From a virus: a DNA stretch of 21,087 nt. Of the stretch, positions 3,166 to 12,670 are shown piece by piece (the first letter of the stretch is position 1; every line of letters begins with the position of its first letter). The notes below the pieces were generated by a model, which saw only the letters and a program-made list of their open reading frames with translations, did no database searches and was not told the origin of the DNA. The stretch is from positions 1-21,087 of IMG/VR virus record IMGVR_UViG_3300046010_005021. The stretch is one strand, 5' to 3'. The position numbers and the translations under genes were made by a program.

Positions 3166-4095
3166 TCACTTCTTTAGCTGGCGAAAAACACGGAACGTGC
3201 TGGTGCTAGCCTCGCGCGCCGGGGTCTTGCGGGTCTGGGGCAGATAGCTAAAGCCGTCTCCTTCCTCGAACCGACCGACCTCTGCGTCGCCCATCGCCTC
3301 TAGGATCTTGGCTCGGGCATGACGCTGCATCTCTTCTCCGGCATCGGCCATGGCCTTGCCTTCGTCTAGCATCTCGCCGTACATGCGAAGACTTGCGTCC
3401 AAGGATACTTCCTTGTTCTCGGCCCGCACAACGTCTTTGAGTGCTTCAAGGTCCTTGGCGTACTGTGCCGGGGGCGGCACGCGCTTCACGATGTGGTCGT
3501 TCCAGAAGTTGACCAGCATCGTCGTAGCCCAGTCCTCCCACGCTAAATCGCGGTCGAACTTGTACACGTTGACAGACGGAGGAATCAGCGCGGACACCAT
3601 GCCGTAGTCAGCGTTGGCCATCATCGCGTACAAACGGGCCTGAGTCTGCGGACCAATCGGGCACTCGTCGCCCCACGGGTCGTGAAACACAGGCGCCTTC
3701 AGCTCAATGACTGCTTTTTGCGGTGCCGTCTGTCCTTCTGCGTAGCCTGAGCAGAAAGCGTCAGGCGTGCCTACGATGAAGCTGTACTGGTCATGCACGA
3801 TCATGCGGTTGTTGGCCGCAATCAGGATGTCGGGGTACTTGTCCCCAAGGATTTCCAAGTGCAAGCGCTCGCTCTTGGTGCCCCAGTCAAACAGCTCTTG
3901 CAAGCTGTCGTCTACGTCCTCGGGCACGTCCTTGCCATCAAGCTCGTTCGTGATGCGGATGTACTCGCTGAGCGGAGTGCCGCGCACGCCTCGCATGCTC
4001 GGGTACAAGATGTTTGCAGCGGTGCTGCAGTTGATCTTGCCCTTGCGCGCTACTCGCCAATCAGGCGAGCCGTGAATGATGTCGGTCAGAATCAC
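3166..4095 (-). CDS. YqaJ-family viral exonuclease (lambda Exo-like)
   Basis: The 309-aa product starts at GTG 4095, overlapping the annealing-protein stop by 4 nt (GTGA). It is a PD-(D/E)XK exonuclease that would resect duplex ends 5'-3' to give single strands for annealing. Visible catalytic core: E76 in the helix after WGTKSER, G109-T-P-D112, and E131-L-K133, followed by Q150/Q152 in a PQTQARLY helix. These are the classic YqaJ/lambda Exo signatures. A helical region (about 215-275) and a C-terminal segment (280-309) follow. Translation is coupled to the Rad52-like partner, forming a two-component recombinase module like Red alpha/beta. It probably functions in replication-linked recombination, end repair and genome mosaicism. 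Confidence 0.88.
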   Translation of the reverse strand: MILTDIIHGSPDWRVARKGKINCSTAANILYPSMRGVRGTPLSEYIRITNELDGKDVPEDVDDSLQELFDWGTKSERLHLEILGDKYPDILIAANNRMIVHDQYSFIVGTPDAFCSGYAEGQTAPQKAVIELKAPVFHDPWGDECPIGPQTQARLYAMMANADYGMVSALIPPSVNVYKFDRDLAWEDWATTMLVNFWNDHIVKRVPPPAQYAKDLEALKDVVRAENKEVSLDASLRMYGEMLDEGKAMADAGEEMQRHARAKILEAMGDAEVGRFEEGDGFSYLPQTRKTPAREASTSTFRVFRQLKK

Positions 4096-4961
4096 AGCGC
4101 CCCCTTGCTCTGCAGGTCATGCACCACCATAAGCGCGTACTCTTCCATGGCGCTCGGTTGCTTGCCTTGCTTGAACTGCTCGGCAATCTTGTTACCGAGC
4201 CAACGCAGATAGCCTGAGCCCTCGTTGCTCGCGGCCAGCGCGCGCAGCGTCATGCCCTTGTGCTTGCCAAACGGGAGCGTCTGTGCGTACGCGGTCTCGG
4301 GGCTGTACGCATGCGTGATCGGAACGCCGTTGACCTCAGTCACGCCGACGACCTCGCCGGTCGCTGAATCAAAAGGGACCGTGTCTTCTTCCCCTTCAAA
4401 CTTGCTGACGAGACGGTCCATGAAGCCATCGTCCCCGGACTGAGGCTCCGGAACAGGCTGGGGCTTGGGGGCTAGCGCGCGCTCAATGCGCTGTGCCTTG
4501 ACCGGGGGCGCAGATGCCGCCGTGTTGCGCTCGGTCTTGGACCACAGCTCCAATGCCACGCCAAAGCGCATAGCCGCGTTGCGGAGCGCGTCACCGATCA
4601 ACTGCTTCTCTGCGTCAAAGGCGGTTGACTCCACGCTACCGTAGCCAAGGCGCGTCACCCCGCACACAGTGAGGCGGATCCACAGGCCGATAGGCTTGCC
4701 GCTCTTGTCGCGCTCAAACTCCGGCACGCCCTCGTGCCAGCGGCAGGGCTGCCAGTTCCATTCCGGGTCAATGTCAAGCAGGCGCTCAGTGATGTCGGCG
4801 TGCCCGACGTAGTCGAGCATCGCGCCGCCCTTGGGCTTGCGGCTGATCTTCTCGGGAGGGAACGGTGTACGAAGGGCCTGAAGCTTGGCTTGGCGTTCCA
4901 GTGCAGCGGCCTCGTTCGCGGCCACAGTAGCCTTGTCTTGGTCAAACATTTTGTTGGTCAT
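4092..4961 (-). CDS. Rad52-like single-strand annealing protein with ExoX-like C-terminal domain
   Basis: The 289-aa product starts at ATG 4961 (a second ATG at 4949 is possible). The N-terminal half (about 28-140), with LRTPFPPEKI, the LDYVGHADITERLLDIDPEW segment and a GDALRNAAMRFGVALELW helix, matches the Rad52/22-type annealing fold common in phages. A Pro-rich linker (about 160-190) leads to an acidic segment. The C-terminal domain at about 228-262, LPFGKHKGMTLRAL...GYLRWL, matches the small domain seen at the C-terminus of exodeoxyribonuclease X-like proteins. The protein should anneal complementary strands exposed by the neighbouring exonuclease, while the extra domain may bind DNA or recruit a partner. 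It is the first gene of the leftward operon. Confidence 0.82.
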   Translation of the reverse strand: MTNKMFDQDKATVAANEAAALERQAKLQALRTPFPPEKISRKPKGGAMLDYVGHADITERLLDIDPEWNWQPCRWHEGVPEFERDKSGKPIGLWIRLTVCGVTRLGYGSVESTAFDAEKQLIGDALRNAAMRFGVALELWSKTERNTAASAPPVKAQRIERALAPKPQPVPEPQSGDDGFMDRLVSKFEGEEDTVPFDSATGEVVGVTEVNGVPITHAYSPETAYAQTLPFGKHKGMTLRALAASNEGSGYLRWLGNKIAEQFKQGKQPSAMEEYALMVVHDLQSKGAL

Positions 4962-4991
4962 AGCCTAGTGTTGAGTGAAAGCCCCGGCACC

Positions 4992-5020
4992 TTGCCAAGG
5001 CGTGCGCGGGAGTGTACTCT
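4992..5020 (+). promoter_or_regulatory. sigma70-like promoter for the 5048 operon
   Basis: TTGCCA (4992-4997), a 17-bp spacer, then TACTCT (5015-5020) within the 86-bp divergent region. A start near 5027 would give a leader of about 20 nt carrying AAGGA at 5031-5035. I see no equally good promoter for the leftward operon in the same gap. Confidence 0.5.
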
Positions 5021-5031
5021 ACCGCCGTCCA
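5019..5031 (+). promoter_or_regulatory. copy 3 of shared motif CTACCRNNRTCCA
   Basis: CTACCGCCGTCCA, overlapping the end of the proposed -10 and the transcription start of the rightward operon. Confidence 0.5.
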
Positions 5032-5047
5032 AGGACAAGAACGAAAA

Positions 5048-5551
5048 ATGGAAGACGAAACGCTTTTTGAGTACCGCGACAACTGCTGCGTGACCGACGG
5101 CAGTGAGCGCTGTTCCCGGCCCGTGTTTATCCAGTCGTGCTCGGCATGGCTGAAGAGGCCGTTGTGCCGCATGCACCACGCCCGTGTCATTCGTCACGGA
5201 TCGCCCGGGGGCGTCGAGTCTAGGTGGCGTGCTCCCTCTCGCAAGAGGGACCGGCGAGGCAAGGACCTGCACAACCGGCTTTCCATGTGGGTCAAGAAGT
5301 ACGGTGACGAGTTCCGTATCCGCAAGATCACGCTCCCGATTGCCCCGATCAGGATCAAGACCGCGTGGATCGCGCAGCACAAGCAAGCCGACGGCCCTAG
5401 ACAAGGCGCTCATCTAGAGGCACAGCACGACAACACGGTCCGCGCGTGGCAAGAGCGAGGATGGGTTCAGCTGTTCCCGGTAGACGATGGCGACACATAC
5501 AAAGTCAGCGTCATGATGCGCTATACTCAGGACGGAGAACTTTATGGCTGA
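5048..5551 (+). CDS. zinc-binding protein of the phage HNH/zinc-ribbon type, function unknown
   Basis: The 167-aa product starts at ATG 5048. The upstream in-frame GTG at 5012 overlaps the promoter and is not used here. The N-terminal 55 residues carry C13/C14, C22, C31, C40 and H43/H44 in a pattern (C...C-R-P...LC-x-M-H-H-x-R...HGSPGG). It resembles the short zinc modules that precede HNH or AP2-like domains in phage proteins. A basic linker (58-72, Arg/Lys-rich) and a largely helical C-terminal part follow. I cannot see an HNH catalytic motif. A DNA-binding regulator or remnant endonuclease is plausible. It overlaps the next gene by 8 nt, so it is the promoter-proximal gene of the tail-fibre operon. 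Confidence 0.72.
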   Translation: MEDETLFEYRDNCCVTDGSERCSRPVFIQSCSAWLKRPLCRMHHARVIRHGSPGGVESRWRAPSRKRDRRGKDLHNRLSMWVKKYGDEFRIRKITLPIAPIRIKTAWIAQHKQADGPRQGAHLEAQHDNTVRAWQERGWVQLFPVDDGDTYKVSVMMRYTQDGELYG

Positions 5552-6911
5552 ACAGAAACCGCTGAAGCTCGTTGTTGGTTCGCCTAACACCATTGCCGAG
5601 ATGAACTCTGCCTCGGACACCATCCAAGAGGCGCTTCTCCCGGGCACCGTTGCAAAGCTGACCGCAACTCAAACGCTGGTTAACAAAACCATTAGTAGCC
5701 CGGCGATCAGCTTGATCGAGAGCAAGGGTGCAGCCAACGCCACCATTGTTCAGTTTTCAAGTACATTAGGATCCACCGTTGGATCTGCCTGTGACCACGT
5801 CAAGATCGTTAACGCCGCAAGTGGTACCGGCGGGACGCTGCAGGCCGAGAACTCTGGTGCGTCAAACGTAGACCTAAACCTTGCTGGAAAGGGCACGGGC
5901 AAAGTCAAGGTAGGCGGGTCCGAAATCGTCACTGCTACAAGCACGACGATTATGACCAACAAGACCTTGAACTCTCCGACCATTGTCACGCCGACGATTA
6001 GTTCATCTGGATTTGCAAGCGCCAATCACGGGCATATCGACACGGCTTCGGGCGGCAGGCTCTCCGGAGCCGCTATCAGCAGTTCTGTGCGCGGTGTTGC
6101 GCTGCACTCAAGCACGCCTTTTGCGTTGATGCCGACGGCGTCTTCGTACAAGACTGCAAGCGCTGGCGGGGCCGTTAACAACTGGACCGGAGCTATCCCA
6201 GCGCTGTCGGATTTTTCAGACAGCGAAACGTCGGGCGCGTTTGGTGGTCAGCCCTACATGACGACTCGCAGTCGTCTGTCTTACCTGAACTACATCAACA
6301 CAAACCTTAACACCGGCACCACCGGCTACATTAGCTTTGGCCCGCAATGGCGTATTTCGGGGCCTGCTAGCGGGGCTAACGCTCAAGAACAAGCCGGTCA
6401 CTACACTAACTGGCTTGGCCCAGCGGCTTCGGCTACAGCGGGCGCGGGGCCCTACGAAACTCAGTACTACACATGCACGACAGTGGGGTCGTCTTCGGTC
6501 CTCAACGCCTCCGGGGTCGGCAAGTGCTTTGAGATGCGCCTTTCCGGAAGACTTGTTACCACAGGCACGTCTACGGTGTGGAATATTGGCGTTGTCCCAC
6601 CAACCGGCACAACTACTCCAGCTACGCTTTTAAGCACCGCGGCGCTTGCCGCGGGAACGTATTCTGTTTTTGTTTCTGTTGTATGCACTATGGTTACTTC
6701 CAACACAATGTATCAAGCTGTTGCATCTGCGCAGGTTGTAAACTCTGCCGGAGCGCTTCAAGCGTTGATTGGAAGCTACTCTTCCCTTATCAACCCTGTT
6801 TCTCCGGACAGCACCGTGCGGTACTTGTCAATCGGCATTGGCAATAACACTGCAATGGCGACCGGCACTCCTAGTTTTTTTGGCGTCTTGACCGGCATGG
6901 AGCTGAACTGA
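5544..6911 (+). CDS. tail fibre or receptor-binding-type structural protein
   Basis: The 455-aa product starts at ATG 5544 with GGAG about 8 nt upstream, overlapping the previous stop. The N-terminal region has two TLxNKTIxSPxI-type segments (about residues 43-55 and 137-150), a repeat signature common in phage fibres. It also has beta-rich Gly/Ser/Thr/Ala sequence and a GKGTGKVKVGG turn. An HGHI motif (about 162-165) marks the change to a distal domain of about 290 residues, rich in aromatic and small residues and with few charges. It is likely trimeric and surface-exposed, contacting the host. Exact trimer position and receptor are unknown. Confidence 0.75.
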   Translation: MAEQKPLKLVVGSPNTIAEMNSASDTIQEALLPGTVAKLTATQTLVNKTISSPAISLIESKGAANATIVQFSSTLGSTVGSACDHVKIVNAASGTGGTLQAENSGASNVDLNLAGKGTGKVKVGGSEIVTATSTTIMTNKTLNSPTIVTPTISSSGFASANHGHIDTASGGRLSGAAISSSVRGVALHSSTPFALMPTASSYKTASAGGAVNNWTGAIPALSDFSDSETSGAFGGQPYMTTRSRLSYLNYINTNLNTGTTGYISFGPQWRISGPASGANAQEQAGHYTNWLGPAASATAGAGPYETQYYTCTTVGSSSVLNASGVGKCFEMRLSGRLVTTGTSTVWNIGVVPPTGTTTPATLLSTAALAAGTYSVFVSVVCTMVTSNTMYQAVASAQVVNSAGALQALIGSYSSLINPVSPDSTVRYLSIGIGNNTAMATGTPSFFGVLTGMELN

Positions 6912-7282
6912 TGCCCGGCAGCATCCAAGTTACGACTTACGCAAACAACAACGCGACCCAGCGCGAAGTGTTTACGGACTCGTCTGGCTCTATCTACGTC
7001 GTCAACAACGCTGGCTCGCAGATCGCGGTCGCCAACACTCCGGACACGGACCCCACACTCGGTGGCCAGTTGTTCTTGTTTGACGTGAACGGCACGTCTC
7101 GCCTCATTGGCTGGTACGCACTGACGCCGTTTGAGGCCACGTCGGAGATCTACTCGCTTGCGTACCAGATCTCTAGTGGCGGGCTGCTGGCGTGCATGAT
7201 CGCAACCAGTACGCTGGCGCCGTTCCAGTACCCAAATGGGCCTGACGTCATCCCCGGCAACGTGCATCAATGGAGTAGCTGA
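6911..7282 (+). CDS. small tail- or fibre-associated protein, unknown
   Basis: The 123-aa product starts at ATG 6911, sharing one base with the fibre stop (TGATG). The sequence is beta-rich, low in charge and without Cys except one, with an N-terminal VTTYANNNATQREVFTDSSG segment. No family is recognised. Tight coupling between the fibre and the next gene suggests a fibre accessory or baseplate component, an inference from position and composition. Confidence 0.7.
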   Translation: MPGSIQVTTYANNNATQREVFTDSSGSIYVVNNAGSQIAVANTPDTDPTLGGQLFLFDVNGTSRLIGWYALTPFEATSEIYSLAYQISSGGLLACMIATSTLAPFQYPNGPDVIPGNVHQWSS

Positions 7283-7710
7283 TGATCGCCCCCATGAGAG
7301 GTGAGTTCTACGAAGGCGCAGGCGTCTATCTCAAAGCACGCTTGTCCGGTGGCGACAACAACCTGATTTCGTCGAGCAGCTTTACGTCTGCGGTGTCGAG
7401 CAACATCGCTATTTCTGTGTTTGATAGCACAGATTTGACTGCATACGCTAGCGCAGGCACGAGCGGAACGTCATTGCCCGATACGCTAGTCCCGGTGTAC
7501 TCGGCCAGCGTTGCCTACACCAACATCATCATTCCCTTGACCTTGAACGGGTGGTCAGAGGACTTGATCGGGTACAACTTCACTTACACGTTCACGACCC
7601 AGTATGCGTTCCAAGGCGGCCACTCGTACCGTGTCGAGTTCAAGCTCAATACCATCAATGGCAATGTCTACGCGGTGTTCGAGCTTGCGTGCCGTTCTAC
7701 TGGCAGTTGA
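7282..7710 (+). CDS. small beta-rich virion protein, unknown
   Basis: The 142-aa product starts at ATG 7282, sharing one base with the previous stop (TGATG). An internal ATG at 7294 is a possible alternative. The sequence is Ser/Thr/Tyr-rich with alternating hydrophobic residues, typical of a beta-sandwich, for example YSASVAYTNIIIPLTLNGW. It closes the rightward tail operon. It runs 14 nt into the leftward gene at 7697-8002, and I see no terminator between them, so transcripts would overlap. Confidence 0.7.
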   Translation: MIAPMRGEFYEGAGVYLKARLSGGDNNLISSSSFTSAVSSNIAISVFDSTDLTAYASAGTSGTSLPDTLVPVYSASVAYTNIIIPLTLNGWSEDLIGYNFTYTFTTQYAFQGGHSYRVEFKLNTINGNVYAVFELACRSTGS

Positions 7711-8002
7711 CTGGCTCGACGTAATCAAGTCCACGGCTATGCTTCCATGTCGGCTTGTGCTGTTCATGGTCCCAGCAGTTTACGAGCATGGATGTACTGC
7801 CGTTCTTCATCAGCCTTACGTCGAGAACGCGGCCAGTACACTTCGTCGGCTTGACTCCCGTGTGCCGGGTGTAGGACACGACAACGCCGACCCAGTTGAG
7901 CGTGCTTCGGATGTACGGAAGAACTGACTTGGGGACGTAGACTAGCTGCCCGTTTTCTGGGGCTTGCTCGGACCTAGACTTCCTCGTCTCCTTGTTCGTC
8001 AT
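7697..8002 (-). CDS. 101-aa unknown protein
   Basis: The frame is open to ATG 8092, but the DNA from 8003 upward is better explained by the gene ending at 7974. ATG 8002 is therefore preferred, giving a 29-nt overlap with that gene. The product has a basic N-terminus, then GQLVYVPKSVLPYIRSTLNWVG and a beta-rich section with an RVLDVRLMKNGSTSMLVNCW strand pattern, and ends VEPVNCQ. No family is recognised. The end overlaps the convergent tail gene by 14 nt, and its last codons lie in copy 1 of the CAGTTGACTGGC repeat. Confidence 0.6.
   Translation of the reverse strand: MTNKETRKSRSEQAPENGQLVYVPKSVLPYIRSTLNWVGVVVSYTRHTGVKPTKCTGRVLDVRLMKNGSTSMLVNCWDHEQHKPTWKHSRGLDYVEPVNCQ
7704..7718 (+). repeat. 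15-bp repeat copy 1 (CAGTTGACTGGCTCG)
   Basis: Lies at the convergent stop codons of the 7282-7710 and 7697-8002 genes. On the minus strand it encodes EPVN near the end of the leftward gene. Confidence 0.75.
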
Positions 8003-8681
8003 CCGCAAGGAGTGTTTTTCTGTTCTCGTCTCTTCCGGGTCTGGGGAGATGGGCGTACCAGTGCTGTTCAGGTGGATCGTCTTCGTACTCATGATTTCTA
8101 TCGCAGTTGACTGGCTTGCCGCACGATGCGCAGGTGACTAGCTTACCCGAATCAGATTTTAGGTCAGTTGACTGGCTCGCCCGGGTTGGTTGGTTGGCCG
8201 GACCGGCCGCCTCGCGGCCCGGCGAGGCATCGACCCCTTGGCCCGGCCCCTGACCCCTTGACCCGGTCACCGGTCGGAGCCGGACCCCTTGACCGCGCAA
8301 CCGGGGACCGAACTCGTCACCAGCGGGGCGGCCTTCGCCCCGGACGTAGTCCAGTTCGGCCAGCAGCATCGGCACCCGGCCAGCGTCGCGAAGTACCCCG
8401 GTCGTCGTCAGCGCGTCCACGTCGCGCCGGGCTCGGCCGATGGCCTCGCGGATGGCGTCCCACTCGAGCTGCGCGTCCGCGCGCTCGGCGTTGTCCCCGT
8501 GCCGATAGGACCGCACAAGCCGCTCGCGCTCCGCCAGCGCGAGCGCCTCCAGCGTATCCCGGACGCCTGCCCAGTACGCTGCCGGGATCACCGGCGGCGG
8601 CTTGGGACCGATGCTCAAACGCGCCCAGCGCGCCCAGCGCACTGCGCAGCGTGCCGCGAACCCAAACGCCTTCCCGCGCAT
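7974..8681 (-). CDS. apparent fusion ORF: high-GC helical N-terminus joined to phage-type zinc-finger C-terminus
   Basis: 235 aa from ATG 8681 to TAG. Residues 30-130 are helical and charged, from GPKPPPVIPAAYW to LAELDYVRGEGRPAGDEF. Residues 130-172 are a low-complexity Gly/Gln/Arg linker encoded by the GACCCCTTG repeats. Residues from about 173 on are encoded by lower-GC DNA and contain C184-x2-C187, C193 and H198/H209 in a CASCGKPVNCDRNHE context, a plausible zinc site, then an acidic tail. The composition break falls at the 15-bp repeat at 8165-8179. The frame is continuous, so a real chimera, a gene truncated by insertion, or a readthrough artefact are all possible. No function assigned. 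Confidence 0.55.
   Translation of the reverse strand: MRGKAFGFAARCAVRWARWARLSIGPKPPPVIPAAYWAGVRDTLEALALAERERLVRSYRHGDNAERADAQLEWDAIREAIGRARRDVDALTTTGVLRDAGRVPMLLAELDYVRGEGRPAGDEFGPRLRGQGVRLRPVTGSRGQGPGQGVDASPGREAAGPANQPTRASQSTDLKSDSGKLVTCASCGKPVNCDRNHEYEDDPPEQHWYAHLPRPGRDENRKTLLADDEQGDEEV
8104..8118 (+). repeat. 15-bp repeat copy 2 (one mismatch)
   Basis: CAGTTGACTGGCTTG, in the zinc-finger-coding part of the leftward ORF. It encodes KPVNC in the same frame as copy 1, where it gives EPVNC. Confidence 0.7.
8165..8179 (+). repeat. 15-bp repeat copy 3, at the GC breakpoint
   Basis: Identical to copy 1 and located exactly where low-GC phage-type DNA gives way to the GC-rich block. It is read in a different frame from copies 1 and 2. 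Confidence 0.75.
8232..8291 (+). repeat. three copies of GACCCCTTG
   Basis: Copies at 8232-8240, 8252-8260 and 8283-8291, each followed by G/ACC. They encode the Gln-Gly-rich linker of the 7974-8681 ORF and sit just inside the left edge of the GC-rich block. Confidence 0.7.
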
Positions 8682-8788: not shown

Positions 8789-9196
8789 TCAGGGCGACCA
8801 GTCGAGCCCGGTGACCTCGGTCGGCTTGCCGTCGGGGTCGATGCTGTAAACGCGCGGGGCAGCACCGGCGGCGGGGTAGTTCCGGATGATGGCGACGGCG
8901 ACGGCTTCGGGTAGGTCCACGTGACGGCCTTCTCGGTTGGTCGCCATCAGGAGCGCGTCGCCGTAGATCGGCACCTGCGCGAGCGCAGACGCGCGCGCGT
9001 TACCGGCCGGGTGATCGACAAGGGCGCCCTCGTCGTCGATCCATAGCGCGAAGTGCATGCCCCCGGGCGCGTCATGGACCCGGACCGTATCGCCGTAGGC
9101 AGCACCTACCGCGCGATTCAGCTGCTCGTACCCTGACGCGGTCACTGCGCCCAGCTCGGCGTTGCCGTCCGCCGGGATTCGGATACAGAGCGGCAT
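8789..9196 (-). CDS. DUF3846-like protein
   Basis: The 135-aa product starts at ATG 9196, sharing one base with the preceding stop (TGATG on the minus strand). The frame is open to 9343, but that part is the shadow of the neighbour. The sequence starts MPLCIRIPADG and has VGAAYGDTVRVHD, then ALWIDDEGALVDHPAGNAR, then a PIYGDALLM strand. This layout matches the DUF3846 type of small protein found in phages, plasmids and mobile elements: an N-terminal strand, a LWIDDEG turn, a PxNxxA helix, and a GDxL strand. The family has no established function. It is probably last in the tightly packed AAA+/vWA unit, with 107 nt without a gene before the next ORF. Confidence 0.65.
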   Translation of the reverse strand: MPLCIRIPADGNAELGAVTASGYEQLNRAVGAAYGDTVRVHDAPGGMHFALWIDDEGALVDHPAGNARASALAQVPIYGDALLMATNREGRHVDLPEAVAVAIIRNYPAAGAAPRVYSIDPDGKPTEVTGLDWSP

Positions 9197-9588
9197 CAGT
9201 TCAACCCCTCCCCGGGTCGGCGCGCCGCCGGTGCAATCGCGTCGCCGGTCCATGCGTGCAGGCTGAGGAAGCTGACCATCGCGTGCGCCATCCCGGCGCG
9301 CGCTTGCAGCTCGTCGGCTTCGGTGCCTTCGGTCTGCTCCCACTCAATCCGGGTGTCGAGGATCACGGTCCAAGCTTCGTGAGACGTACACATGGCCAGC
9401 GCCATCCAAAGGTTGACCCCGGTCGGTGACGAACGCACGACGCGGTCGCGCAGCGCGTGCAGCGCTTGGACGTCGGCCTGCGAACATGCATCGACCAGTG
9501 CGCGCGCGACTTCCGGCATCGGCACGCCGTCAACCTTGAGCCCCCAGAACTCTTGCACGCCCTCGTGCAATGTATGCGCCGGGATCAT
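9196..9588 (-). CDS. 130-aa unknown protein
   Basis: ATG 9588 overlaps the stop of the 88-aa gene by 4 nt (ATGA), and its own stop shares a base with the DUF3846-like start. It is mainly helical and mildly acidic, with GVQEFWGLKVDGVPMPEVARALVD near the start and a Trp/Met-rich segment NLWMALAMCTSHEAW in the middle. It ends in a Pro/Arg-rich tail. No family is recognised. Continuous overlaps with both neighbours imply co-expression and perhaps a shared complex. Confidence 0.68.
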   Translation of the reverse strand: MIPAHTLHEGVQEFWGLKVDGVPMPEVARALVDACSQADVQALHALRDRVVRSSPTGVNLWMALAMCTSHEAWTVILDTRIEWEQTEGTEADELQARAGMAHAMVSFLSLHAWTGDAIAPAARRPGEGLN

Positions 9589-9851
9589 GCGTCACCGCCT
9601 TCGGCGTCGCGCTCGGCGCGGTCTGCCGCGCGCATATCGCGGACGAGCCGCTCGAGCAGCTGCGCGGCTTCCGACGCGCGCGCTTGCGCGTTGCGCCACA
9701 TCGTGCGGGTCTCATTCTCCGCAGCCATTGCCGTGCGCTGGCTGCAGACCTCCAGCGCGTGCAGCGCGTGAGTGTGTGCCAACTGCGCTTGCACTTCCGC
9801 AGTGCGCCGGGCCATCGCTTCAGTCTTGTCAAGTTTTCTTGTCATGGTCAT
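9585..9851 (-). CDS. 88-aa helical protein, possible coiled coil
   Basis: Two in-frame ATGs, at 9851 and 9845, open the gene (MTMTRKLD). The rest is almost entirely helix-forming, rich in Ala, Glu, Arg and Gln with heptad-like leucines (HALHALEV, AAQLLERLVRDM). It ends in an acidic Gly tail. The coiled-coil composition resembles the middle region of the vWA protein upstream, which may reflect pairing; that is speculation. It follows the vWA stop after 87 nt of hairpin-rich DNA. Confidence 0.65.
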   Translation of the reverse strand: MTMTRKLDKTEAMARRTAEVQAQLAHTHALHALEVCSQRTAMAAENETRTMWRNAQARASEAAQLLERLVRDMRAADRAERDAEGGDA

Positions 9852-9869
9852 GGTCTCGTTTCGGTTCGC

Positions 9870-9926
9870 GCGGCGTCCCTGAACGCCGCAGGTATTGGGA
9901 CGCGCGCGCGGCGACCTGCCGCGTGC
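9870..9926 (-). other. two consecutive stem-loops between the vWA gene and the 88-aa gene
   Basis: GCGGCGT/ACGCCGC (9870-9876 with 9883-9889, 6-nt loop) and GCGCGCGGC/GCCGCGTGC (9904-9912 with 9918-9926, 5-nt loop, one G-U pair). There is no T run on either side, so they are not a simple terminator. They may set differential expression, by RNA processing or attenuation, between the large and small genes. Confidence 0.5.
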
Positions 9927-9938
9927 GCCGCTCAGGGC

Positions 9939-11642
9939 CTAACCCACTGGCTGACCAGCAGCGTCCATCAGCGCGACGAACTCGGCGCCGGTCAGCGCCT
10001 CGAGCAACCCGCCAGCCGACGTACGCAGCACGACGCGCCAGCCCTCGTCAGCGTCCGGGGCCAGCGCGTTGCTCTCGACGATGATGTACGCACAAGGGCA
10101 AGACGCCTTGCGCAGGAACGACTCGCGGTCGTCCCTGCGCGTCTCGCCGTCGGTGAGGACCACAACGAGCTGCCGCATGCCAACGCGCGCAGTCGATTGC
10201 AGTCGGCCCATGCGCGGCGCTGCGCTGTGCGTCAGGTCCGTGCCGCCGCTCGGCTTGCTCGGCGCGAAATCGCAGTCTAACGGCTGCGACCAGTTCAGCA
10301 CCGGCGGCTGCTCGTCGCTGCAGTTCTCGCCGTTCCATGCGTCCACGGCGGCGTCATGCCCGGCGGCGCGCAGCGCGCGCACAAGCTGCGCGGCTGCGAC
10401 ACCCAGCGACACGGACATTCCACCCGTGCTGCCACTCACGTCCACAAGCAACTGCACGGCTACCGGCTGGCGCCCGGCACGTCGCGTGCAGAGCGGCGTG
10501 CGCAGCGCGCCGACGGCCCAGCCAACGAGCGCGGGAGACGCTACGCGCGCGCCGAACTCATCCACGACGGTGTTGGCGTCGGCATCCACGCGCACGGCCT
10601 CGGCAAAGTCCTGCGCGCCCTGCGAGAGCGGCGAGCGCTCGAGCGCCTGCCACTTCCCGCACGAGTAAGCGCCGGAGTACCCGGCCCCGCCGGTCTTCCG
10701 CTCGTACCGCTCACCAGTCTGCTGCTCGACGGCGTCCAGCAACCGGCCTTCCCGGTACCAGTTCTGCGTTGTCGCGTCCAGCAAGTCACCGAACGACTGG
10801 ACGGCGCTGCCGTGAGTGTCGCCCTTCCGGTTGGCTGCGGCTTGCACCGCGCACCACGCGGTCATCGCAGCGCGGTGCTTCTGCTGCGCCTCGACAGACT
10901 CCAGCGCTGCGGCGTCGGCCTTGGCCATCACCTGAGCCTCCTCGGCGGTCAGCTCGGCAGCCTTCGCGCTTGCGTCCATGCGCTCACGCGCTTCCTGCAG
11001 GCGCTGCTCGGCCTTCACTGCTGCCGTCCGGGCCTCGTTCAGAGCGCGAGTGGCGCGGGACTTCTCGCCCCGGTTGCCGGTGCTGCCGTCGAGCATATCC
11101 CGTTGCGCCTGAGCCCGGGCCAGCTCGCAGCGCTTGGAGTCGTTCCACGCTTGTGCGTTTTGAAGCTCGGCCTCGGCGTGCTGGACCGCCGCCGCGCGAC
11201 GGCGAAGGGCTGACGCCTGGTGGGTTAGCTTCGAGCTTCGGGCGCTCGTCTCCGAACACACCTGGGCCGACTTCGCAACTTCGACGGCGGCATCCACTTC
11301 GCTGCGTTCGATCGCGAACAGCACGAGCCACTCGTCAACGCTCAAACGGTCGAGCACGGCGAGCGGAAGCTTACCGGCTTCAGCGATAACGTGCCGAGCC
11401 CCATGATGCTCACCGGCGGCGAACAGCTTGGCTGCAGCCTTGCCTCCGTAGTTCACCAGAAGGCGCGACGCAGTCAGGGCGGCGACGTTGTCCAGCAAGC
11501 TGGCGCCGTTGTCATTACCGGCGAGTCGCATGACGACGGCCTTGCCAACGCAGCTAGCGTGGTAGTCCCGCATCCGGTTCGGCGCGATGGTCATGCCGCC
11601 GAGCGTGTGCCCTTGGGGCGCGGTCAGGGTGAAGGCGCTCAC
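9939..11642 (-). CDS. vWA-domain protein with intact metal-binding site and central coiled coil (CobT/CoxE-like partner)
   Basis: The 567-aa product overlaps the AAA+ gene by 4 nt (ATGA at 11639-11642). The N-terminal ~110 residues are of unknown fold. Residues about 115-280 form a long Ala/Glu/Arg/Gln coiled coil. A middle section with GYSGAYSCGKW follows. The C-terminal vWA domain begins near 395 with LLVDVSGSTGG. The metal-ion-dependent adhesion site is complete: D401-x-S403-x-S405, T468 in SGGTDL, and D498 in VVVLTDGET. vWA proteins encoded next to MoxR/CobS ATPases usually hand substrates to the ATPase for metal insertion, complex assembly or remodelling. No CobT signature or cobalamin gene is seen, so a cobalt chelatase role is not supported. 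Confidence 0.82.
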   Translation of the reverse strand: MSAFTLTAPQGHTLGGMTIAPNRMRDYHASCVGKAVVMRLAGNDNGASLLDNVAALTASRLLVNYGGKAAAKLFAAGEHHGARHVIAEAGKLPLAVLDRLSVDEWLVLFAIERSEVDAAVEVAKSAQVCSETSARSSKLTHQASALRRRAAAVQHAEAELQNAQAWNDSKRCELARAQAQRDMLDGSTGNRGEKSRATRALNEARTAAVKAEQRLQEARERMDASAKAAELTAEEAQVMAKADAAALESVEAQQKHRAAMTAWCAVQAAANRKGDTHGSAVQSFGDLLDATTQNWYREGRLLDAVEQQTGERYERKTGGAGYSGAYSCGKWQALERSPLSQGAQDFAEAVRVDADANTVVDEFGARVASPALVGWAVGALRTPLCTRRAGRQPVAVQLLVDVSGSTGGMSVSLGVAAAQLVRALRAAGHDAAVDAWNGENCSDEQPPVLNWSQPLDCDFAPSKPSGGTDLTHSAAPRMGRLQSTARVGMRQLVVVLTDGETRRDDRESFLRKASCPCAYIIVESNALAPDADEGWRVVLRTSAGGLLEALTGAEFVALMDAAGQPVG

Positions 11643-12664
11643 AGCGTCACCCCCGTCGCCTTCAGCGCGGCGAAGCGCTCACGAACTTGGTCAGCCGCCT
11701 TCACCGGCAAGGCGTCGATGAGCGCGAGCCCCCAAGCTTGCTCCGGCTGCAGCCCGGCCTTGAGCGCCGCGAGCACGCGCAGGCCCATGCGCGGTGACGG
11801 CGGCACGTCGTGCGCGCCGCACTTGAACAATGCGCGGGCCTCGACCAAGTGAGCAAGCGCCCACCGGCTGCTCTTCTCGTCGTAGCCGTGAGCGGCGTAC
11901 AGCTTGACTTCCACGTCCTCCGGCAAGTAGTCCGCTGCGATGAACAGCGCGCGGCCCTTCAGCGCGGTGCTGATGGTCTGCACCGAGTAGTTGCCGCCAC
12001 TATCCCGGCGCAGCCCGTTGCACGTCAGCACGACGCGGAAAGCGGGGTGCGCCACTAGCTGCTCGCCCGACAACAGGCGCGCGCTTGCGTCCCGGTCGAG
12101 CACCGAGTGCAACGCACCGACGACGCTGGCGTGGACTAAGTCGAACTCATCCAGAATGAGCGTGCCGCCGTCGCGCATGGCGCGAGCCACTGCGCCCTCC
12201 ACAAACGCGAGGCGCCCGGCTTCCGTGCCGGTCCACGGCCGGTCAAGCAAGTCCTCCCGGGTTGTGGCAGCGCTACACTCCACGGTGTACACGGGACGCC
12301 CGCGACGCGCTGCAGCATGGCGCGCGGCGAACGTCTTCGAGCTGCCAGACGGGCCGCTCATAATGACGCAGCGCGTGCCGTCCACGTCCATCACCTTCAG
12401 CGCGGCGTCGAGCGCGTCGCACGTCGGCGTGCGGGTGTACTTGTCGCTTGCGCCCAGCGCGTCAGGGCGGGCGTGAGGTAGCACGTTGTCAAGAGCCCGG
12501 CGCGCGTCGGCGGTCAGGTCCTCGATCACGGCGCGGACCTCCGCGCGCACTGCGTCGCGATCGAGCGCCGGGGCGGTGGCTTCTGCCGCCATCAGCGCTG
12601 CCAGTTGTTCAACGGCGTGCAAGGCGGTCGCCCGGCGGACTTGGGAAGGGTTCACGTTGGTCAT
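11639..12664 (-). CDS. AAA+ ATPase, MoxR/CobS-like
   Basis: The 341-aa product starts at ATG 12664; an in-frame TTG two codons upstream is a weaker alternative. A helical N-terminal region (about 1-75) precedes the ATPase core. Walker A is G104-P-S-G-S-S-K110-T111, Walker B is LILDEFD (D172, E173), sensor 1 is N216 in VVLTCNG, and a PRMGLRVL segment (about 291-298) fits sensor 2. The REDLLDR segment after the first strand pair is typical of the MoxR/CobS clade. It would form a ring that remodels a client protein selected by the vWA partner encoded directly downstream. It is the first gene of the leftward unit. Confidence 0.85.
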   Translation of the reverse strand: MTNVNPSQVRRATALHAVEQLAALMAAEATAPALDRDAVRAEVRAVIEDLTADARRALDNVLPHARPDALGASDKYTRTPTCDALDAALKVMDVDGTRCVIMSGPSGSSKTFAARHAAARRGRPVYTVECSAATTREDLLDRPWTGTEAGRLAFVEGAVARAMRDGGTLILDEFDLVHASVVGALHSVLDRDASARLLSGEQLVAHPAFRVVLTCNGLRRDSGGNYSVQTISTALKGRALFIAADYLPEDVEVKLYAAHGYDEKSSRWALAHLVEARALFKCGAHDVPPSPRMGLRVLAALKAGLQPEQAWGLALIDALPVKAADQVRERFAALKATGVTL

Positions 12665-12670
12665 GGTCAA

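Follow-up and report, generated by a model that had tools for sequence, protein, structure and literature searches.

A conserved AAA+–vWA gene pair beside the terminase genes

The stretch of DNA analysed here (the window) comprises 21,087 nucleotides of IMG/VR virus record IMGVR_UViG_3300046010_005021, a phage contig in which a minus-strand operon precedes a plus-strand block of terminase, portal and major capsid genes. The operon encodes, in order, an AAA+ ATPase, a protein with a von Willebrand factor A (vWA) domain, proteins of 88 and 130 amino acids (aa), and a DUF3846 protein of 135 aa, and starts and stops overlap at every junction except that between the vWA and 88-aa genes (Table 1). 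The first two genes probably encode a protein remodeller of the MoxR clade. An earlier note on this DNA had described the open reading frames (ORFs) of the first three genes, which were recovered at the same positions, and had suggested a possible new MoxR–vWA architecture made of a coiled-coil vWA protein and a small helical partner. L002, a 23.5-kb contig from IMG/VR, shows no difference from the window across 9836 bases and was therefore counted as the window's own virus.

Terminase searches gave seven further contigs of the phage group and an eighth, L099, that is remote at 24%. L009, L011 and L013 were left out of locus counts because they contain too little upstream sequence. In all five phages that reach the locus (the window, L008, L010, L012 and L015), the AAA+ gene is followed directly by the vWA gene and the pair adjoins terS/terL. 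Its presence near the terminase genes of five distinct phages shows that the pair is real and conserved. In the window and L008 its direction of transcription opposes that of the terminase; in L010, L012 and L015 the two agree. The module is thus flipped with respect to the terminase from one sub-group to another (window 9196-12670 versus L010 4305-6863).

The ATPase matches Pfam AAA_5 (1.9e-20) and PHROG 249, labelled 'porphyrin biosynthesis' (8.2e-27). A four-member profile of the clade's ATPases matches NorQ (1.2e-19), CobS (1.8e-15) and CbbQ (4e-14) in the PDB, besides midasin. The Walker B DE pair is invariant across the clade ATPases, and invariant arginines occupy what we take to be the usual arginine finger and sensor 2 places. 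The window and L008 share the Walker A sequence GPSGSSKT; L010 has GPAGTGKT and L015 has GPSGSGKT. On these profile matches, the ATPase is assigned to the MoxR/CobS/NorQ group of AAA+ proteins, as the earlier note had proposed.

The adjacent protein has a vWA domain with a complete metal ion-dependent adhesion site (MIDAS), whose residues D401, S403, S405, T468 and D498 are invariant in all five clade members. At full length the protein is unrecognised by Pfam, PHROG, NCBIfam and padloc, and the domain alone scores below the curated cut-offs of its Pfam matches (VWA_CoxE, E = 0.0019; VWA, 0.11; CobT_C, 0.11). NorD is the best PDB match of the vWA profile (0.0019). For residues 389-563, the predicted fold gives Z 13-14 against vWA domains, including that of NorD at 22-24% identity, and a domain-only model (mean predicted local distance difference test score, pLDDT, 67.6) again matches integrin-type vWA domains, NorD and phage vWA proteins. 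NorD is thus among the best matches of the domain, with integrin and collagen vWA domains scoring alike. Because integrin-type vWA domains fill the VIA-align and Foldseek lists, nothing follows from the absence of CobT and CbbO there.

Table 1. Features of the operon, with positions in the window.
Feature	Position	Strand	Basis
AAA+ ATPase, assigned to MoxR clade (CobS/NorQ/CbbQ group), 341 aa from ATG, operon gene 1	11639..12664	-	Pfam AAA_5, PHROG 249 and PDB profile matches
vWA protein, 567 aa, GTG start overlapping AAA+ stop codon	9939..11642	-	ORF calls, invariant MIDAS residues
vWA-protein N-terminal region, residues 1-114, unclassified, poorly conserved, without HExxH	11301..11642	-	No Pfam match; best PDB E 0.71; one invariant residue (start M)
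Residues 115-272: long hairpin of helices, probably a coiled coil, exceeding the length seen in every relative	10827..11300	-	AlphaFold2 helices 102-186 and 191-272; marginal periodicity; MIDAS at 401 versus 254-316
Variable linker, residues 273-340	10623..10826	-	No invariant residues among 5 sequences
Pre-vWA segment, residues 341-390, at NorD pore-finger position by place only	10473..10622	-	G364, W375, A376, G378 and P383 invariant in 5/5
vWA domain, complete MIDAS, residues 391-567	9942..10472	-	MIDAS residues, predicted fold, Pfam domain-only scores
vWA/88-aa intergenic gap, 87 bases, GC-rich	9852..9938	-	Folding not beyond shuffles, z = -0.97
88-aa Ala-rich helical protein, no family	9585..9851	-	No Pfam/PHROG match reaching a cut-off; absent from L010, L012 and L015
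130-aa protein, no family	9196..9588	-	Pfam/PHROG scans, comparison with relatives
DUF3846 protein, 135 aa	8789..9196	-	Pfam DUF3846, 6.3e-7

The arm diverges much faster than the ATPase

Identity to the window across the relatives falls from 74-90% in the terminase to 41-51% in the AAA+ protein, 27-39% in the vWA domain and 20-30% in the N-terminal part of the vWA protein (hereafter the arm). Between L012 and L015, the corresponding values are 92% for the terminase, 87% for the AAA+ protein (over 198 residues), 59% for the vWA domain and 32% for the arm. At the DNA level, most of the packaging and capsid region of these two phages is 0.75-0.95 identical and the AAA+ gene 0.73-0.79; identity drops at the AAA+/vWA gene boundary, the vWA gene showing 0.52-0.61 over its first half and 0.63-0.69 at its end. 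The arm therefore diverges much faster than the ATPase in the window clade. Among related pairs whose vWA partner carries an HExxH motif (described below), those with AAA+ identity above 0.8 (n = 3, from at most 60 pairs drawn at random) have mean identities of 0.73 in the arm and 0.67 in the vWA domain.

Among viral contigs, the only close relative of the vWA protein comes from the contig identical to the window. Phage genomes gave no match for the vWA protein of the window or L015, and bacterial and archaeal genomes, scanned twice with the AAA+ and terminase alignments, gave none either.

Architecture of the vWA protein and the small downstream genes

The first 114 residues of the vWA protein have no Pfam match at E ≤ 5 and a sole PDB match at E = 0.71, in agreement with the earlier note, which had left this domain without a family. 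The start methionine is their single invariant residue among the five clade sequences. Downstream of the arm, AlphaFold2 predicts the two long helices listed in Table 1, with block pLDDT values of 64-84 for residues 141-240. The long coiled coil claimed for this region is supported as far as the helices go, but heptad periodicity is marginal (shuffle p = 0.11 and 0.05). Residues 102-272 are therefore called only a helical hairpin, probably a coiled coil, a prediction that in the feature list is given to residues 115-272. Codon-position base composition in this part resembles that of the rest of the vWA gene. As a family trait the coiled coil does not hold, since the MIDAS lies at residue 401 in the window versus 254 in L008, 302 in L010, 306 in L015 and 316 in L012; among the relatives compared, the long coiled coil is found only in the window virus. 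The pre-vWA segment carries five invariant residues (Table 1). In a profile comparison with phage CobT-like partners, the match is confined to the MIDAS strand and does not extend to residues 341-390.

The small genes fared similarly. The 88-aa protein is an ORF of helical composition, as had been described, but its coiled-coil heptad signal is marginal (p = 0.08). The 88-, 130- and 135-aa genes, whose linkage the earlier note had suggested testing, have no match in any of the three testable relatives (L010, L012 and L015; L008 ends inside the vWA gene). These three relatives instead encode a helical protein of 178-212 aa and a protein of 79-82 aa, and L012 and L015 have in addition a DUF7447-like gene that scores below the cut-off. 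Equivalence of the window's small genes with those of the relatives was rejected for want of a match; the DUF3846 protein ranked 18th of 1712 scored against the relatives' 79-82-aa proteins, the rest being shuffles, a resemblance that is weak at best. With the coiled coil and the small genes not found in the testable relatives, 'coiled coil plus small partner' does not define a family. The two GC-rich stem-loops reported between the vWA and 88-aa genes were likewise rejected as a signal: on the strand, positions 9845-9945 fold no better than shuffled sequence, 30 of 200 shuffles folding at least equally well (Table 1).

HExxH motifs in related loci

A scan with the AAA+ alignment found 83 relatives, of which 80 loci were kept and joined with four annotated records to give 84 loci. 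A vWA-like ORF lies within 4.5 kb of the ATPase in 61 of these and is complete in 55. Fifty-one of the 55 complete partners have an HExxH motif in their first 120 residues, and the window clade (L003, which is the window, L015, L016 and L017) accounts for the four without one. The 84 loci are not independent, as 52 HExxH partners reduce to 21 after copies more than 85% identical are dropped. The 23 loci without a vWA match comprise 21 contigs that end beside the ATPase, L018, where HELGH and the vWA domain occur in the products of separate genes, and L006, where no vWA partner was found near the related ATPase in the stretch examined. L006 is a Salmonella genomic island, and its stretch 4863-8425 groups the related ATPase gene with ssb and a recombination gene resembling bet. 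Phage partners annotated as CobT or peptidase (L019-L092, L004, L005, L007, L018 and L100) nearly all have the N-terminal HExxH.

No HExxH was found anywhere in the AAA+–vWA module of the window clade. A candidate remnant at residues 78-90 (EHHGARHV, aligned to HELCHV by MAFFT) was rejected because the N-terminal profiles of the clade and the HExxH partners do not match, a comparison by hhalign that has little power at a clade Neff (effective number of sequences) of 2.5. The C-terminal sets of the same comparison were unevenly cut, some early matches having been taken as the MIDAS.

Comparison with described systems

Viral CobS/CobT-like pairs combine a PHROG 249 ATPase with PHROG 459/5298 partners, as in Ochrobactrum phage OC p013/p014, Gordonia phage Gray gp72/gp73 and Brevibacterium phage Cantare gp55/gp56. 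The window ATPase is 25-28% identical to theirs over the matched part and likewise neighbours a protein that has its MIDAS vWA domain at the C-terminus, and the gene order in Gray and Cantare is that of the window pair; unlike these pairs, the window clade lacks the partners' near-N-terminal HExxH. NorQ/NorD, which serves nitric oxide reductase maturation in Paracoccus, gives the best single-domain PDB matches of both window proteins, apart from midasin, integrins and collagen. The window vWA protein is ordered as NorD is (N-terminal domain, linker, vWA), but the finger and H2 insert motifs of NorQ/NorD have no established counterpart in the window pair, vWA-fold identity is 22-24%, and no nor genes are present in the window gene list. 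The Schitoviridae core genes N4 gp24/gp25 also place an AAA+ gene before a vWA gene. Unlike the window vWA protein, gp25 is a DUF2201 protein with HELWH (Pfam name putative metallopeptidase, DUF2201_N), and gp24 matches the clade ATPase profile only at E = 0.1. MoxR–vWA ternary conflict systems have, according to PMC7159879, a MoxR and vWA core with a proposed third component. The window shares the MoxR plus vWA core, but Pfam and padloc recognised no effector domain or third component there.

No description of the window clade was found in the literature searched. The pair is an unusual variant of the described phage CobS/CobT-like kind, with NorQ/NorD as the nearest solved structures. CobT-annotated phage pairs with this kind of ATPase already exist, and the window clade is set apart from them by its lack of the N-terminal HExxH.

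A probable protein remodeller with a fast-changing arm

The pair is most readily explained as a MoxR-clade AAA+ machine of the phage that remodels proteins and keeps its motor while its target-facing arm is quick to change, a reading we consider fairly likely. It draws on the MoxR-clade profile, the vWA fold and complete MIDAS in all five members; on the adjacency and constant order of the pair in the five phages reaching the locus; on the vWA partner within 4.5 kb at 61 of the 84 related-ATPase loci; on NorD being among the best structural and profile matches; and on the contrast between arm and AAA+ or terminase identity in L012 and L015. In the NorQD complex, as described in PMC9976466 and PMC13036017, the vWA domain sits in the ring, and the finger that immediately precedes this domain enters the pore. 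Specificity is proposed to come from the N-terminal domain, and the linker, which is essential, is proposed to be twisted as ATP is turned over. By analogy, the ATPase would form a hexameric ring plugged by the vWA domain and the conserved pre-vWA segment, the MIDAS metal would hold the target, and the N-terminal region would be the arm that picks it. ATP turnover would then twist or pull the target and so change its conformation, in the way published for NorQD. The helical hairpin predicted in this virus would lie between the arm and the vWA domain, likely as a spacer. The target could belong to host or phage, a changing host protein being the first guess.

Several points weigh against this reading. 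The fast divergence of the arm may reflect relaxed constraint, which gives the same picture as diversifying selection, and the divergence comparison comprises five members, with the L012 AAA+ protein a 198-residue fragment. In the Walker A motif of the window and L008, serine replaces the last glycine, a change that might reduce ATPase activity. The AlphaFold2 model of the full-length vWA protein is poor (mean pLDDT 50), and the equivalence of residues 341-390 with the NorD finger is one of position only.

A more specific proposal, that these uncultivated phages replaced a protease-like front part with the quickly changing arm and so obtained a re-aimable remodeller directed at changing host proteins, is offered tentatively. 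Whether the pair instead remodels the portal, capsid, scaffold or terminase as a factor in virion assembly or packaging, which would account for its place beside terS/terL in all five phages, appears unlikely: no co-evolution is seen, as terminase, portal and capsid are 74-92% conserved and the arm 20-32%, and the orientation of the pair relative to the terminase differs among the phages. A device for counter-defence or host takeover, with an arm that recognises a defence or regulatory protein of the host and a motor that unfolds or disarms this protein, would fit the fast divergence of the arm and the neighbouring small genes beside a conserved motor, as well as the different unclassified small neighbours of the sub-groups. 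The matches to defence families are only one to AAA in general (4.9e-5) and, for a neighbour in L015, a weak one to 'Effector 4TM' (0.0072), and we regard this alternative, too, as improbable. That the helical hairpin and the 88-aa protein form one unit, the latter being a true third component, is suggested by their shared Ala-rich, helical composition and their location on the same strand 87 bases apart; given that neither was found in the relatives tested and that they co-occur in only one virus (L002 being identical), it seems quite doubtful.

Least probable is that the pair acts as CobS/CobT with host CobN and inserts cobalt for cobalamin synthesis, as PMC8651126 proposes for viral cobST clusters and as the relation of the ATPase to CobS and PHROG 249 would allow, because the NCBIfam CobS equivalog gives the window ATPase 36.2 bits against a cut-off of 558.55, less than GvpN (47 bits), the arm is not conserved as expected of a chelatase partner, and CobN (PF02514) occurs in none of the eight group records, which are possibly fragments, and in 5 of 14 control genomes, although the proposal uses the host's CobN. 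Cobalt chelation is thus not supported for the window pair. In tailed phages, AAA+–vWA pairs are widespread, and their annotation is often that of cobalt chelatase or peptidase subunits. The existence of a clade with the motor retained, no HExxH and a varied arm suggests that their shared function is protein remodelling, not chelation. The chelatase label looks doubtful for phage AAA+–vWA partners as a whole, nearly all of which carry the N-terminal HExxH, the N4 one being a putative metallopeptidase by its Pfam name. The window clade offers natural variants for probing the role of the arm.

Other features of the window and its relatives

HExxH recurs in the phages of the group only away from the module, inside giant proteins of 3423, 3361 and 2955 aa (L094:8743-19011, L096:6985-17067 and L097:4842-13706), where HExxHD lies in similar sequence context at residues 533, 467 and 352, respectively. 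The L094 protein matches LPD38 (1.4e-30), and the motif possibly belongs to a metallopeptidase-like part of a polyvalent protein. Rfam and tRNA scans of the window gave no matches. Window 3166-4961 contains a YqaJ-type recombinase gene (Pfam 3e-5) and, next to it, a gene without a Pfam match that likely encodes a single-strand annealing protein; both have matches in L010 and L015.

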